Assembly: GCA_030583865.1 (NCBI GenBank)
Contig: CP129479.1
Coordinates: forward strand, 2,380,819 to 2,444,818
Length of the DNA: 64,000 nt
Reading direction: 5' to 3'
From: Thermodesulfobacteriota bacterium
GTDB lineage: Bacteria; Desulfobacterota; GWC2-55-46
Of this stretch, positions 2,925-62,882 are shown one piece after another; position 1 is the stretch's first letter; each line of letters starts with the position of its first letter. The position numbers and the translations under genes are program-made. The notes under the pieces are model-generated. The model did not search any database, was not told the DNA's origin, and saw only the letters and a list, made by a program, of their open reading frames with translations.

Positions 2925-3011
2925 GCAATGAGCGTATATGTCAATATGTGAGCATCTTTATTCCCTAACTACCCAGAGTCTTCGGAAAAGATCAATTTTT
3001 GGAACTTGCCT
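2925..3011 (+). repeat. Palindromic element R1, right half only
   Basis: The segment GTATATGTCAATATGTGAGC ... TTTATTCC ... GAAAAGATCAATTTTT ... CTTGCCT matches the right half of the R1 family (compare 62800-62882). The left half is not recognisable here, probably lost or replaced next to the R2 copy. Its end abuts the stop codon of the minus-strand lipoprotein gene. Confidence 0.65.
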
Positions 3012-3691: not shown

Positions 3692-4128
3692 GCCTCCTCC
3701 GCGATTCCGTGATGCCGGTTCCTGTAAACCGGGCTTTGGTTGCATGCGAGACGACGCACGATTGAGGGTGCAAAAGACCGGAAGCAAAAAATATGAATAG
3801 CTCACAAGAAACTATATAGCCGTAACCAGACCTGGATGAATGCGGTAAATGAGACGCGTCTTATCGCCGTGAGGCGTATGATTACAGGCCTATCTTTTCA
3901 AGGGAATGGTGGATATGATTATCGAGCGGTAGTCGCCTGCCTGCTCGTCATTATTGTTCACGAAATGAACATACCATAGGAAAGCTGGTGCGGTCAAGGG
4001 CCTCTTTTGAAACGTTTCCATAACATAAACAAAGAACAACCTTGAAAAAAATTCTAATTAATGTTAAAAAATTTATATTCAAAAAGTTGCATATCGCACT
4101 TTTTAATTTGCAAGCAGAATGAGGCAAT
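3692..4128. other. Gene-free 437 bp holding a decayed regulator duplicate
   Basis: The left part (about 3692-3840) has no recognisable feature. From 3841 to 4000 it holds the remnant of the winged-helix gene with its promoter and operator, described separately. The last 128 bases are very AT-rich and presumably contain the kinase promoter: TTGAAA near 4041 followed by AT-rich sequence is a weak candidate only. Confidence 0.6.
3841..4000 (-). pseudogene. Remnant of a second winged-helix regulator gene with promoter/operator
   Basis: This stretch aligns with 1752-1840 and then 1964-2040 of the intact regulator locus; about 120 bases are missing in between. The matching part includes the 5' end of the gene, the operator (GTTCACGAAATGAAC at 3956-3970, one base off the perfect palindrome), the -10 box (3968-3973) and -35 TTGACC (3992-3997). 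The start codon reads GTG. Similarity stops sharply at 2040 and at 4000, just where AT-rich DNA begins in both places. It cannot encode a working protein but may still bind the regulator. Confidence 0.75.
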
Positions 4129-18738: not shown

Positions 18739-18857
18739 CCATAACCGGCCCCGGGCCTCACAGCCTATGACGGTTTCACGGCGCCCGGCCCTTCCCATTT
18801 CCGATTCTGGTATATTATATAATTCGCCCTTGTTTTTACGCATACCTAAACAACTGA

Positions 18858-19001
18858 AGGGTGCCTCTAAAAATTATGAATTTTTTCTGAGGTCAAGGAA
18901 GGGCGGAAATAAAAAGCGAAGCATACATGGGAATATGTGAACATTTTTATTTCCGCCCTGACACAGAGATCAGGAAAAATAATCATTTTTAGAGGTAGCC
19001 T
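18858..19001 (+). repeat. Palindromic element R1, copy A
   Basis: About 144 bp, almost fully self-complementary. The outer arms are AGGGTGCCTCTAAAAAT and ATTTTTAGAGGTAGCCT; the inner arms are GGGCGGAAATAAAAA and TTTTTATTTCCGCCC around a loop with ATACATG...AATATGTGA. It is nearly identical to the copy at 55074 and lies just upstream of the SpoIIM-like gene. Confidence 0.85.
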
Positions 19002-19013
19002 GAAAGAGTCCGA

Positions 19014-20673: not shown

Positions 20674-20817
20674 ATGACAACCTCTAAAAATTGAAGATTT
20701 TTCCCGCAATCAAGGAAGGCCGGGAATAAAAAGCGGAGCATATATGATAATATGTGAGCATTTTTATTCATGGCCTGACGCAGAGTCCGGGGAAAAGATT
20801 AATTTTTAGAGTTGCCT
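20674..20817 (+). repeat. Palindromic element R1, copy B
   Basis: Outer arms CAACCTCTAAAAATT and AATTTTTAGAGTTGCC; inner arms GGCCGGGAATAAAAA and TTTTTATTCATGGCC, with loop GCATATATGATAATATGTGA. It separates yggS from proC and ends 16 bases before the proC start. Confidence 0.85.
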
Positions 20818-22830: not shown

Positions 22831-23580
22831 ACCTGAACCGTTAAATTTTTCCATTTTGTTAATGTCAGCATTTTGCGCACTGGTATGCGTTTTTTGTGCA
22901 AAGGGCTTTTAACATGCTATCGCGCTTTCGGGCATAAGCGAAAGACCTTTTTCCGCGCTTTCCGCGTGGTTTCGAGGGTACGGCTCGTTTGCTGTCTACC
23001 TCCACCACCCCGTGAACACACAAAAGCGAGCAGCGACCCAGGAGCTTTTTCTGGGTCAAGCGAGCGGATGCAAATCCGGGAATCTTCAACGGGCCCCCAA
23101 AGTCGCGGAGTTTACCTGAGCGAAGCGAAGGGCCTCGTTCTACTTACCCGGCCCGTTCACGCTCCGCTCCCTAAGGCTACGCTCGCCTTACCCTCCAGGG
23201 TCTGTTGAAATACAAAAACCTCTTTGTTTTGTCTTTGAGAATAACCCGGGCGTAAGGCGGAGCGAACATAGGGATGGGGGAGGGGCGGGCGAGGCGGGGC
23301 AGCAGGAGCGAGGCTAAAGGCCGAGCGATAATGGTGCGCACAGCGCACCTACAGGGCCGAGCCTGGAGGATGGAGGCGGGTAGTGAGGAGCCTTATGCAA
23401 AAAAGCGCGGCAGCGCCCAAACGGCCTTTGGATAAAAACCGCACGGCAGTGCGGAAAAGGCCTTTTGCTACCGGCTTACCAGTGTGAATTGCCAATGGTA
23501 TCAGTAATTGTACAATGTTATAATGTACCCTGTCCGGCCTTCCTCCCGGAAACGGCCCTGGGATTTTCAAGGAGATGCTA
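22831..23580. other. 750-bp gap rich in repeats, no gene
   Basis: The stretch has no coding sequence I can support. It carries scattered repeat pieces: a 117-bp segment (23215-23331) also found inverted at 33463-33580, the palindrome GGTGCGCACAGCGCACC near 23334, and a GC-rich hairpin CCGCACGGCAGTGCGG near 23442 flanked by AAAAGGCCTTTT-like pieces. The last 60 bases hold the presumed promoter of the radical SAM gene: TATAAT at 23519-23524, just after the palindrome ATTGTACAAT (23508-23517), without a convincing -35. Confidence 0.6.
23215..23331 (+). repeat. 117-bp interspersed repeat R4, copy 1
   Basis: Matches 33463-33580 in inverted orientation over its whole length: the part around GAACATAGGGATGGGGGAGG is nearly identical and the flank with AAAGACAAAACAAA against AAAGACGGAACAAA is looser. 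It is G-rich on one strand. No coding potential is supported. Confidence 0.7.
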
Positions 23581-24785: not shown

Positions 24786-24797
24786 AGTCCCATTTTA

Positions 24798-24870
24798 AGA
24801 CAATTACTAAAAATTAGAGATTTTCCCCGCAATCAAGGAAGGGCGGGAATAAAAAGCGGAGCATATATAT
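24798..24870 (+). repeat. Palindromic element R1, left half only
   Basis: ACTAAAAATTAGAGATTTTC...GGGCGGGAATAAAAAGCGGAG matches the left half of R1 and stops in the central loop (GCATATAT), where a complete second copy begins. This looks like one copy inserted into, or recombined with, another. Confidence 0.75.
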
Positions 24871-24871
24871 C

Positions 24872-25014
24872 AGGGTGCCTCTAAAAATTAGCCATTTTTC
24901 CCGAGGTCGAGGCAGGGTGGAAGTAAAAAGCGCAGCATATATGCCAATATGTGAGCATTTTTACTTACACCCTAACGAAGAGATCTGGGAAAAGGGCAAC
25001 TTTTAGAGCAGCCT
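24872..25014 (+). repeat. Palindromic element R1, copy C (next to rpoD stop)
   Basis: Outer arms AGGGTGCCTCTAAAAATT and ACTTTTAGAGCAGCCT; inner arms GGGTGGAAGTAAAAA and TTTTTACTTACACCC, with loop GCATATATGCCAATATGTGA. The inner arms show paired changes relative to other copies. It ends one base before the stop codon of rpoD. Confidence 0.8.
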
Positions 25015-33330: not shown

Positions 33331-33638
33331 CATCATTCTGAGGTGCAAGGCGGTCGAATAATCTCATACTCAAGCCTCGTCGCAAAAAGCCTTTTAACGC
33401 GCTGCCGCGCTCTTTTCGGGCATGAGGCTCCGCGCACTTTCCGCCTCCTTCCTCCGGGCCCTTATGTCGCTCGGCCTTTGGCCTCGCTCCTAACAGCCCC
33501 GCCTCGCCCGCCCCTCCCCCATCCCTATGTTCGCTATGCCTCATGCCCAGGTTGTTGTGAAAGACGGAACAAAAAACGCAATCGCGCTGCGCGCGCATAT
33601 TCTTTGTCTTTAACGGACCGAGGCGGTAGAACGCCGCC
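33331..33638. other. Gap with repeat pieces, no gene
   Basis: This part of the gap between the ABC operon and rpoZ has a half TCATTCTGAG repeat at the left (33331-33362) and the R4 repeat (33463-33580). The frames open here are short and inconsistent with any family. I see nothing else. Confidence 0.55.
33463..33580 (-). repeat. 117-bp interspersed repeat R4, copy 2
   Basis: Inverted relative to the copy at 23215-23331. The best-preserved part runs from TCGCTCGGCCTTTGGCCTCG through CCCATCCCTATGTTCGC; beyond it GCCCAGGTTGTTGTGAAAGA aligns with the other copy with regular mismatches. Confidence 0.7.
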
Positions 33639-43078: not shown

Positions 43079-43223
43079 AGGCAACCTCTAAAAATTGCTA
43101 TTTTCCACGGACTCAGCATCAGGGCGCGAATAAAAATGCTCACATATTCACATATATGCTCCGCTTTTTATTCCCGCCCTTCCGGGAAAAGCGGGAAAAA
43201 TCTCTAATTTTTCGAGGTTGCCT
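43079..43223 (-). repeat. Palindromic element R1, copy D (inverted orientation)
   Basis: Outer arms AAGGCAACCTCTAAAAATT and AATTTTTCGAGGTTGCCTT, extended to TTAA on both sides. The central loop reads TGCTCACATATTCACATATA, the reverse of the other copies. Inner arms GGGCGCGAATAAAAA and TTTTTATTCCCGCCC. Confidence 0.85.
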
Positions 43224-43249: not shown

Positions 43250-43433
43250 GTCATCCTGAGGGAGCGCAAGCGACCGGCAATTTTTGCAGGACAGCAAAAA
43301 TTGAATGCCGAGCCTCTTGGCGAGGCAGTCCGGAGGGGCGAGATACGAATCTCGTATCCTGAAAAGTCAGCATGATACGAGATTCTTCCCCTTCGATTCA
43401 CTCAGGGCTTCGGCTCACCCGCTCAGAATGACA
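43250..43433. repeat. Interspersed repeat R3 (TCATTCTGAG type), copy 1
   Basis: GTCATCCTGAGGG at the left and CTCAGAATGAC at the right form terminal inverted repeats. The middle contains CAGCAAAAATTGAATGCCGA and GCCTCTTGGCGAGGCAG, which recur inverted at 62483-62650. Length about 184 bp. Confidence 0.7.
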
Positions 43434-44216: not shown

Positions 44217-44587
44217 AGAAGATGTGTTCCAGTCTAAAGGGCTGCTTAAAAAGCCCAATCTGCCGTGTCGTCTTCAGAATTCGTCATTGCGGCGCACAAA
44301 AAAGTACGCTCATTCCTCATTTTTCGACTCCTTGCACCTTGAGCTTTTTGAGCAGCCTGAATGAGATTTGGAAATGGCCTGTAATTGGCAAGTTTAGCAC
44401 AAAAAAAAATCCCTGCCGGGCGGCCCTCCACGAAAGATAGCCCTCCGGGCGCTTTCCGTCCCGGCGCTCCGGGACCTGCGTAACCGCTCACAATTAGCTT
44501 GAAAAAAAAATCCAGATTATTTAGCATATTAAGGCGTTGTGTCCGGGAATGGCCGCCTCCGGCCCCACTCCTTAAATCGGTGAAAAT
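44217..44587. other. 371-bp gap with one MITE-like element
   Basis: Contains the element at 44238-44358, then about 230 bases with no supported feature, A-rich runs near 44400 and 44503, and presumably the promoters of the divergent GT2 genes, which I cannot place securely. Confidence 0.5.
44238..44358. repeat. MITE-like element with terminal inverted repeats
   Basis: AGGGCTGCTTAAAAAGC at the left pairs with GCTTTTTGAGCAGCCT at the right, spanning 121 bp with no coding capacity. Its plan resembles small non-autonomous elements with GGCTGTTCAAAAAG-type ends that I know from other bacterial genomes. Confidence 0.65.
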
Positions 44588-55073: not shown

Positions 55074-55217
55074 AGGGTGCCTCTAAAAATTAAGAATTTT
55101 TTCTGAGGTCAAGGAAGGGCGGAAATAAAAAGCGCAGCATATATGGTAATATGTGAGCATTTTTATTTCCGCCCTGACACAGAGATCAGGAAAAATAATC
55201 ATTTTTAGAGGTAGCCT
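55074..55217 (+). repeat. Palindromic element R1, copy E
   Basis: Nearly identical to copy A at 18858 over its full 144 bp, differing at a few loop positions. Outer arms AGGGTGCCTCTAAAAATT and ATTTTTAGAGGTAGCCT, inner arms GGGCGGAAATAAAAA and TTTTTATTTCCGCCC. It ends four bases before the stop codon of the flippase-like gene. Confidence 0.87.
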
Positions 55218-62482: not shown

Positions 62483-62650
62483 GTCATTCTGAGCGTAGCG
62501 AAGAATCTTGACTTAGGGGAAAGCTGCAATTTACGAAATTCTTATCTCACCCCGTCCTGGGGCTCGACCTTTCGGGCTGCCTCAAGAGGCTCGGCATTCA
62601 ATTTTTGCTGTCTGCAAAATTTGTCGCGCTTACGCTCCCTCAGAATGACG
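62483..62650. repeat. Interspersed repeat R3 (TCATTCTGAG type), copy 2
   Basis: GTCATTCTGAGCG at the left and CTCAGAATGACG at the right. The inner part GCCTCAAGAGGCTCGGCATT with CAATTTTTGCTGTC matches the copy at 43250-43433 in inverted orientation. Confidence 0.7.
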
Positions 62651-62736: not shown

Positions 62737-62882
62737 AGGCAACCTCTAAAAATCAGAGATTTTTCCCGCTTTTCCCGGAAGACCGGGAATAAAAAGCGGA
62801 GCATATATGACAATATGTGAGCATTTTTGATTCCCGGCCTGACAAAGAGTCCGGGGAAAAGATCAATTTTTAGAGGTTGCCT
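62737..62882 (+). repeat. Palindromic element R1, copy F
   Basis: Outer arms AGGCAACCTCTAAAAAT and ATTTTTAGAGGTTGCCT are perfect. Inner arms ACCGGGAATAAAAA and TTTTTGATTCCCGG pair with one bulge, while other copies have GGCGGAAAT/ATTTCCGCC, so both sides changed together. Loop GCATATATGACAATATGTGA. It ends two bases before the nadA stop codon. Confidence 0.87.

Follow-up and report, generated by a model that had tools for sequence, protein, structure and literature searches.

A MITE-like hairpin element with a conserved folded core and replication-linked orientation in a Thermodesulfobacteriota genome

R1 is a MITE-like insertion of about 142 bp, self-complementary over nearly its whole length, that occurs in at least 150 copies in the genome described here and whose orientation follows replication, irrespective of transcription. 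On balance, we lean towards the reading that R1 is a MITE moved by a DDE transposase acting in trans, with a 4-bp A/T-rich target duplication, an insertion step coupled to the replication fork, and a conserved folded core with exchangeable ends. ERIC-like palindromes have long been used in strain typing, and how they move has remained obscure. Should R1 and ERIC have one folded core between different terminal repeats, then evolution keeps something there, and its partner can be searched for. The gene-independent fork orientation of the 150 copies listed makes the insertion step testable and predicts contact between the transposase and the replisome. In uncultured bacteria, such elements would moreover mark the direction of replication from within the genome.

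Copies of R1 in the window and in other genomes

The host, an uncultured deltaproteobacterium from a clade of groundwater bacteria, has a genome (G000) in a single contig of 2,751,635 bases, and the window, by which we mean the whole 64-kb stretch of DNA that was analysed, corresponds to positions 2380819-2444818. All of the R1 positions in the initial annotation are real: six full copies, as well as halves at about 24797-24872 and 2925-3004. The copy under report lies at 18859-19000 on the plus strand, belongs to the subfamily GGGTGCC...GGTAGCC and is flanked by the target site duplication (TSD) TGAA at 18855-18858 and 19001-19004. Its inner helix and apex with loop C span 18901-18961 (plus strand) and here read GCGAAGCATACATGGGAATATGTGAACA; the copy folds at -63.7 kcal/mol, compared with -25.5 +/- 3.3 for mononucleotide shuffles (z = -11.6). 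Three further plus-strand copies are found at 20676-20817, with approximate ends on account of a one-base deletion in the right end, at 55075-55216, with the TSD TGAA and 96% identity to the copy at 18859, and at 62738-62881, which is of the subfamily GGCAACC...GGTTGCC. The copy placed at 43079 is present but reversed, with its motif on the minus strand (43080-43222); it has the minority orientation and is flanked on both sides by the TSD TTAA. The supposed half at 24798 is the left part of an older R1 (24797-24872, plus strand) broken by the copy that follows at 24872, a nested copy (24873-25014, plus strand) without an intact TSD. In the case of the half at 2925, a decayed copy on the plus strand (2925-3004), the right half alone remains. 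The apex consensus of R1 is ..GC-GNA-GCATAT-loop-ATATGT-GA-GC-A...

Several other repeats were observed in the window. A short palindrome of the type CCCCCTTTNNNAAAGGGGG has three copies, at 1278, 2829 and 31304, and a direct repeat of 81 bp with 91% identity (1960-2040 and 3920-4000) lies near ORFs without a Pfam match. Two inverted pairs are also present, one of 78 bp at 87% identity (23223-23300 and 33496-33573) and one of 30 bp at 100% identity near R1 copies (43290-43319 and 62583-62612).

A covariance-model search of the whole 2.75-Mb genome, a step proposed in the initial annotation, recovered the 150 or more copies. A 22-base pattern of the motif matched 146 times genome-wide and its reverse 0 times, so R1 is abundant far above chance. 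R1 is present in 25 of 40 genomes searched, the host's own genome being counted among the 40. Named genomes were scanned with the exact apex pattern, and among the matches listed nearly all are uncultured 'Deltaproteobacteria bacterium' genomes, many of them from groundwater (for instance GWA2_54_12, GWB2_55_19, UBA5799 and H5_GWC). The pattern was also found in a Baikal gammaproteobacterium, another proteobacterium and Candidatus Glomeribacter, with a long hairpin around each; the arms and ends of the Baikal and Glomeribacter copies are wholly different from those of R1. A search of phages, plasmids and viral contigs for R1 gave no match, and nothing was found when the Glomeribacter element was searched against E. 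coli. As a separate observation, another genome (G037) contains a 129-bp unit in tandem array, with one R1-superfamily apex per unit (L085, about 80-600).

Evidence for mobility

R1 inserts as a mobile element does. The 4-mers flanking the element are identical in 45 of 93 copies, with a base identity of 0.73 against 0.42 for shuffled flanks, and the same flank test at lengths of 2, 3 and 5-9 gave nothing comparable. The duplications are A/T-rich and varied in sequence (TAAA, TTAA, TTAT and others). An empty site can be seen directly, since TCAA-R1-TCAA in the host genome corresponds to a single TCAA in a relative. At two other orthologous sites a related genome has R1 and the host has a short remnant, in one case with both ATGA copies around TGGCC. 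Predicted genes contain none of the 150 copies listed, in a genome of which only about 17% of the sampled sequence is intergenic when genes are called in like manner; the calls were made with a simple hexamer model, by which a gene broken by an insertion could escape notice. Together with its ends, GGNNNCCTCTAAAAATT and an inverted copy that form terminal inverted repeats, R1 thus has three features by which a MITE is recognised: terminal inverted repeats, a short TSD, and a short, non-coding, multi-copy and intergenic body. The non-autonomous mobile element, one of several possibilities first raised for R1, is borne out by the TSDs and the empty site. Remnants of R1 in which the hairpin tip is deleted were observed in the host genome at 131236, 288574, 625089, 1309692, 1490639 and 1828702, and one such remnant still has TTAT on both sides.

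The hairpin core is separable from the terminal repeats, and different ends are found on one core. In other genomes of the phylum, hairpin ends match those of resident insertion sequences. Ends of the type seen at locus L276 (GTGTCCATCCA.AAATG; GTGTCCATCCATAAATG) match an end adjoining a PF01609 transposase match (L318), and those of the type seen at L277 (AGAAGCCATTTCAAAACCT) match a PF01609 remnant (L314). An autonomous element with shared ends was seen for two related families that have other ends, but not for R1. No transposase was seen beside the R1 copies of the window, as the first reading of the sequence had it, and PF01609 (DDE_Tnp_1), the sole DDE family searched, was not found in the host genome. 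Among the 40 genomes searched, in line with the suggestion of the initial annotation to look for a transposase with matching ends, PF01609 occurs in 3, in none of them with R1 ends. A scan of all the loci analysed for facing R1 ends 0.5-3.5 kb apart gave four weak pairs and, in addition, a variant of R1 of about 230 bp. This variant, in which one arm has an insert of about 70 bp, was observed in several related genomes (L155, L173, L174, L214, L242 and L245).

A conserved folded strand

The arms of R1 copies differ by paired changes, as had been noticed from the window alone. Among 106 distinct copies of the host's own genome, compensatory changes occur in 24 of 38 pairs (122 cells, against 42 when shuffled; 0 of 500 shuffles as high). 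A model alignment of 12 diverse members (A1) has both-side changes in 23 of 38 pairs, a value reached in 0 of 500 shuffles, and a search with this model gave matches at E <= 1e-4, covariance-model E-values being rough, in 70 of 395 genomes of the phylum. When loci from this search (L273-L296) were read, the loops were found to be kept in most and the arms to differ. A larger alignment of 80 rows including Proteus and Aeromonas (A2, which includes one truncated row and one row antisense to another) could have revealed arms that vary without pairing; instead, compensatory change occurs in 35 of 38 pairs and amounts to 680 cells, where shuffling gave 220 (0 of 500), counts that lean to the structure used for fitting the alignment. 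Shifting the pairing of A2 by 1-3 columns destroys the covariation signal. The folded form is thus kept through paired change in A1, in A2 and among the host's own copies.

Two asymmetric internal loops accompany the helix. Loop B has the form C-RA-G-(GA, GC or AA) opposite (GA or AA)-C-RNA-G, and loop C, beside the apex, has G-N-A opposite G-A and is closed by G.U or G-C. Both loops and the pairing persist in the host's own phylum, Proteus, Aeromonas and Glomeribacter, while the arms and ends differ. On the motif strand, which is defined by the asymmetric apex, G.U and U.G pairs number 198 and A.C and C.A pairs 29. This excess indicates that the conserved molecule is the motif strand, as RNA or as single-stranded DNA. 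It also disfavours the symmetric, double-stranded DNA cruciform offered in the initial annotation, since such a cruciform would show no preference for G.U.

Orientation relative to the replication fork

GC skew, computed for 41 stretches, switches sign in two regions, at about 0.06-0.1 Mb and at about 1.2-1.4 Mb. From 60 kb to 1.3 Mb the R1 motif lies on the minus strand in 79 of 85 copies, and elsewhere it lies on the plus strand in 52 of 65 (150 copies listed; 79:6 vs 52:13, Fisher p = 3.7e-21). The best fit places the breakpoints at 28.6 kb and 1.4286 Mb, separated by half the genome and close to the skew changes, and 136 of 150 copies agree with them; with boundaries based on skew instead of fitting, 131-134 of 150 agree. 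In about 90% of copies, the motif strand is therefore opposite to fork movement. GC skew and the fit itself define the replichore boundaries, and the tests of gene context and age that follow used the breakpoints fitted to the data. The motif runs against the fork in 79 of 86 copies between with-fork genes, 28 of 30 between against-fork genes, 17 of 19 between convergent genes and 12 of 15 between divergent genes. Orientation as a by-product of transcription was rejected on this ground, as copies between against-fork genes still run against the fork in 28 of 30 cases. R1 orientation is tied to replication.

The bias is similar across ages, with the motif against the fork in 27 of the 30 most similar copies, 25 of the 30 most diverged and 37 of 42 with an intact TSD, a likeness that favours insertion bias over slow purging. 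Strand clustering of R1 along contigs is also seen in two genomes of the same genus (G005, p = 5e-5; G001, p = 0.0017). In a genome of the same family and another genus (G014) no strand clustering was detected (9 of 23 neighbours; 34 copies on short contigs), so the fork orientation of R1 is not universal.

A second hairpin family of the host genome, F2 (CAGCTTGCTGAAAAA...TTTTTCAGCAGCCTG; CTGCTCAAAAAGCTCCAGATGCGAGGC...GACTTTTTCAGCAGCCTG), is about 150-160 bp long and has modules like loop B; it appears to be built on the same plan as the R1 core. The window holds one copy, at about 44231-44401 (approximate; minus strand), in the minority orientation. Genome-wide, F2 is biased in the same sense as R1 (6 plus and 23 minus vs 17 plus and 2 minus, p = 3.7e-6), and between against-fork genes the split is 6:0. 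Control repeats, namely TCATTCTGAGGGAGCG (13 sites) and the repeats of a RAYT-type gene (9 sites), had no strand bias in these small samples.

How R1 may move

Under the reading that we favour, a DDE-type transposase supplied in trans would insert R1, and this insertion would be coupled to the replication fork, for example via the sliding clamp or gaps in the lagging strand. Sliding-clamp coupling has been reported for other elements (Gomez et al. 2014, as cited in the review PMC5371812). By such coupling the motif strand would come to run against the fork and would match the nascent lagging strand in sequence; the core is a conserved fold of one strand, with the asymmetric loops B and C. We infer the transposase, the fork-coupled step and a binding partner of the folded strand. 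Three points stand against this explanation: no PF01609 transposase was found in the host genome, and none with R1 ends in any relative; G014 shows no strand clustering; and DDE transposition of double-stranded DNA alone does not explain why a folded R1 strand is conserved. It is conceivable, if quite unlikely, that R1 moves as the folded motif strand itself, recognised via its loops, into the nascent lagging strand, and that ERIC is a branch of fork-inserted hairpins that cross phyla. Such a nascent-strand route would differ from that of IS200/IS605, which uses the lagging-strand template.

The orientation bias could also arise after insertion. R1 might insert in random orientation and lose, by hairpin-mediated deletion, those copies whose stabler hairpin strand is on the lagging-strand template. 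The motif strand does fold more stably than its complement in 143 of the 150 copies listed (-19.6 vs -17.1 kcal/mol, DNA parameters), the majority orientation puts the less stable complement on the lagging template, and apex-deleted copies and deletion footprints exist. However, the bias is no stronger among older copies, the majority orientation is seen in five of the six apex-deleted remnants when these are read by eye, and G014 has the element without the bias; we consider purging of this kind unlikely. A functional structured RNA, kept for the action of its transcript as an mRNA 3' element, a terminator or a source of small RNA, is very unlikely. The motif runs antisense to both neighbouring genes 81 times and sense 35 times, and it follows the fork even between against-fork genes, ignoring flanking gene direction, which sets aside the structured 3' RNA of the initial annotation; target duplications and changing ends likewise speak of mobility and not of a fixed gene. 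These points outweigh, in our view, the G.U-biased covariation of one strand, the match of the sX9 model to one relative below threshold, the one R1 relative in a Proteus rRNA spacer and the orientation-dependent effect of ERIC on mRNA stability in Yersinia (review PMC2229807), all of which count for an RNA function.

A single-strand element of the IS200/IS605 or REP/RAYT type, moved by an HUH nuclease into the lagging-strand template, is highly improbable. Target duplications of 4 bp and long terminal inverted repeats, both of which R1 has, are not features of this class. The genome does have a single-copy Y1_Tnp (RAYT-type) gene at 1.70 Mb (G000:C1:1702622-1702987, minus strand, L145), with single matches in several relatives. 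Its flanks carry GTAGGGTGCGC(C/T)GTGCGCACC repeats, which are unrelated to R1 and, in the few copies seen, without strand bias, and R1 is absent from them. As the sole Y1 gene detected sits among its own REPs, the REP-like origin that had been raised for R1 is rejected. Elements of this class are fork-oriented and use hairpins, according to PMC5371812 and PMC6006769. In its majority orientation, however, R1 puts the complement on the lagging-strand template and the folded strand opposite to it, the reverse of the IS608 arrangement and hence not that of IS200/IS605. Integron attC sites were also considered and set aside, given the target duplications of R1.

Comparison with known systems

IS200/IS605 elements have no target duplication and are not end-to-end palindromes, and Tn7 is large and autonomous. 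R1 differs from IS200/IS605 in having both the 4-bp duplication and inverted repeats. As for likeness, the orientation of IS200/IS605 and of Tn7 (TnsE pathway) follows replication direction (PMC5371812). Among MITEs compared by description alone, Chunjie of Geobacter uraniireducens has many intergenic copies with terminal inverted and direct repeats (review PMC10969869); like R1 it is deltaproteobacterial, but it is 178-235 bp long. QMITE1 and QMITE2 of Coxiella burnetii are multi-copy palindromic MITEs, some of which yield small RNAs (PMC5896051); their target duplications are 2-3 and 7-11 nt, whereas that of R1 is 4 bp.

The Xanthomonas small RNA sX9 (Rfam RF02228) may possibly belong to the R1 hairpin family, the resemblance being suggestive only. 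Its model, over the full model length, matches the Glomeribacter element on the complement strand (26.5 bits, E 0.004 in 241 bases), which is under the gathering score of 44 and covers only half the element. The reversed sX9 consensus, GGAACCGGAGTGTACGAGTGGTACAT, fits the R1 apex rule. No sX9 match was listed for R1, and the X. sacchari sX9 locus gave no match to a wider model of the family (R2). A Proteus mirabilis record has six matches above 50 bits; the one examined, a superfamily member (L369, 1481-1578), lies in the 16S-23S spacer, directly upstream of 23S rRNA.

That no named family fits R1, as the initial annotation had it, holds for Rfam, where a scan found none at its gathering score, but it is superseded in part by a structural relation to ERIC. 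Like R1, ERIC is an intergenic, MITE-like imperfect palindrome (127 bp) with a target duplication. Five ERIC copies align with R2 from end to end, and strand and register agree in all of them; the scores are 13.8 bits for E. coli, 21.3 for Kosakonia, 23.8 for Rahnella, 17.5 for Klebsiella and 9.3 for Yersinia; these overlap the best background hairpin in 50 kb of K-12 (19.3 bits), so that single scores are no proof of membership. ERIC hits in Salmonella plasmids were observed as two pieces spanning about 184 bp. ERIC is described as having TA termini (review PMC2229807), and in place of a TA target R1 shows a 4-bp duplication that is rich in A/T and varies in sequence. The arms and ends of ERIC are unrelated to those of R1, only the loops and apex being common; its apex loop is 2x2 where that of R1 is 3x2, and some ERIC copies depart from loop B. 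The stronger argument for kinship is the detail of loops and apex. Several ERIC copies have loop B as AA-G-GC / AA-C-RCA, the ERIC apex has GA opposite GA with a G.U closing pair, and Rahnella ERIC reads GCATACTTGAGTATGTGA at the place of GCATACTTAAGTATGTGA in the Proteus member, with GCATACTT(A/G)AGTATGTGA in common. In our judgement, based on these sequence features, ERIC is probably a distant member of the R1 hairpin family.
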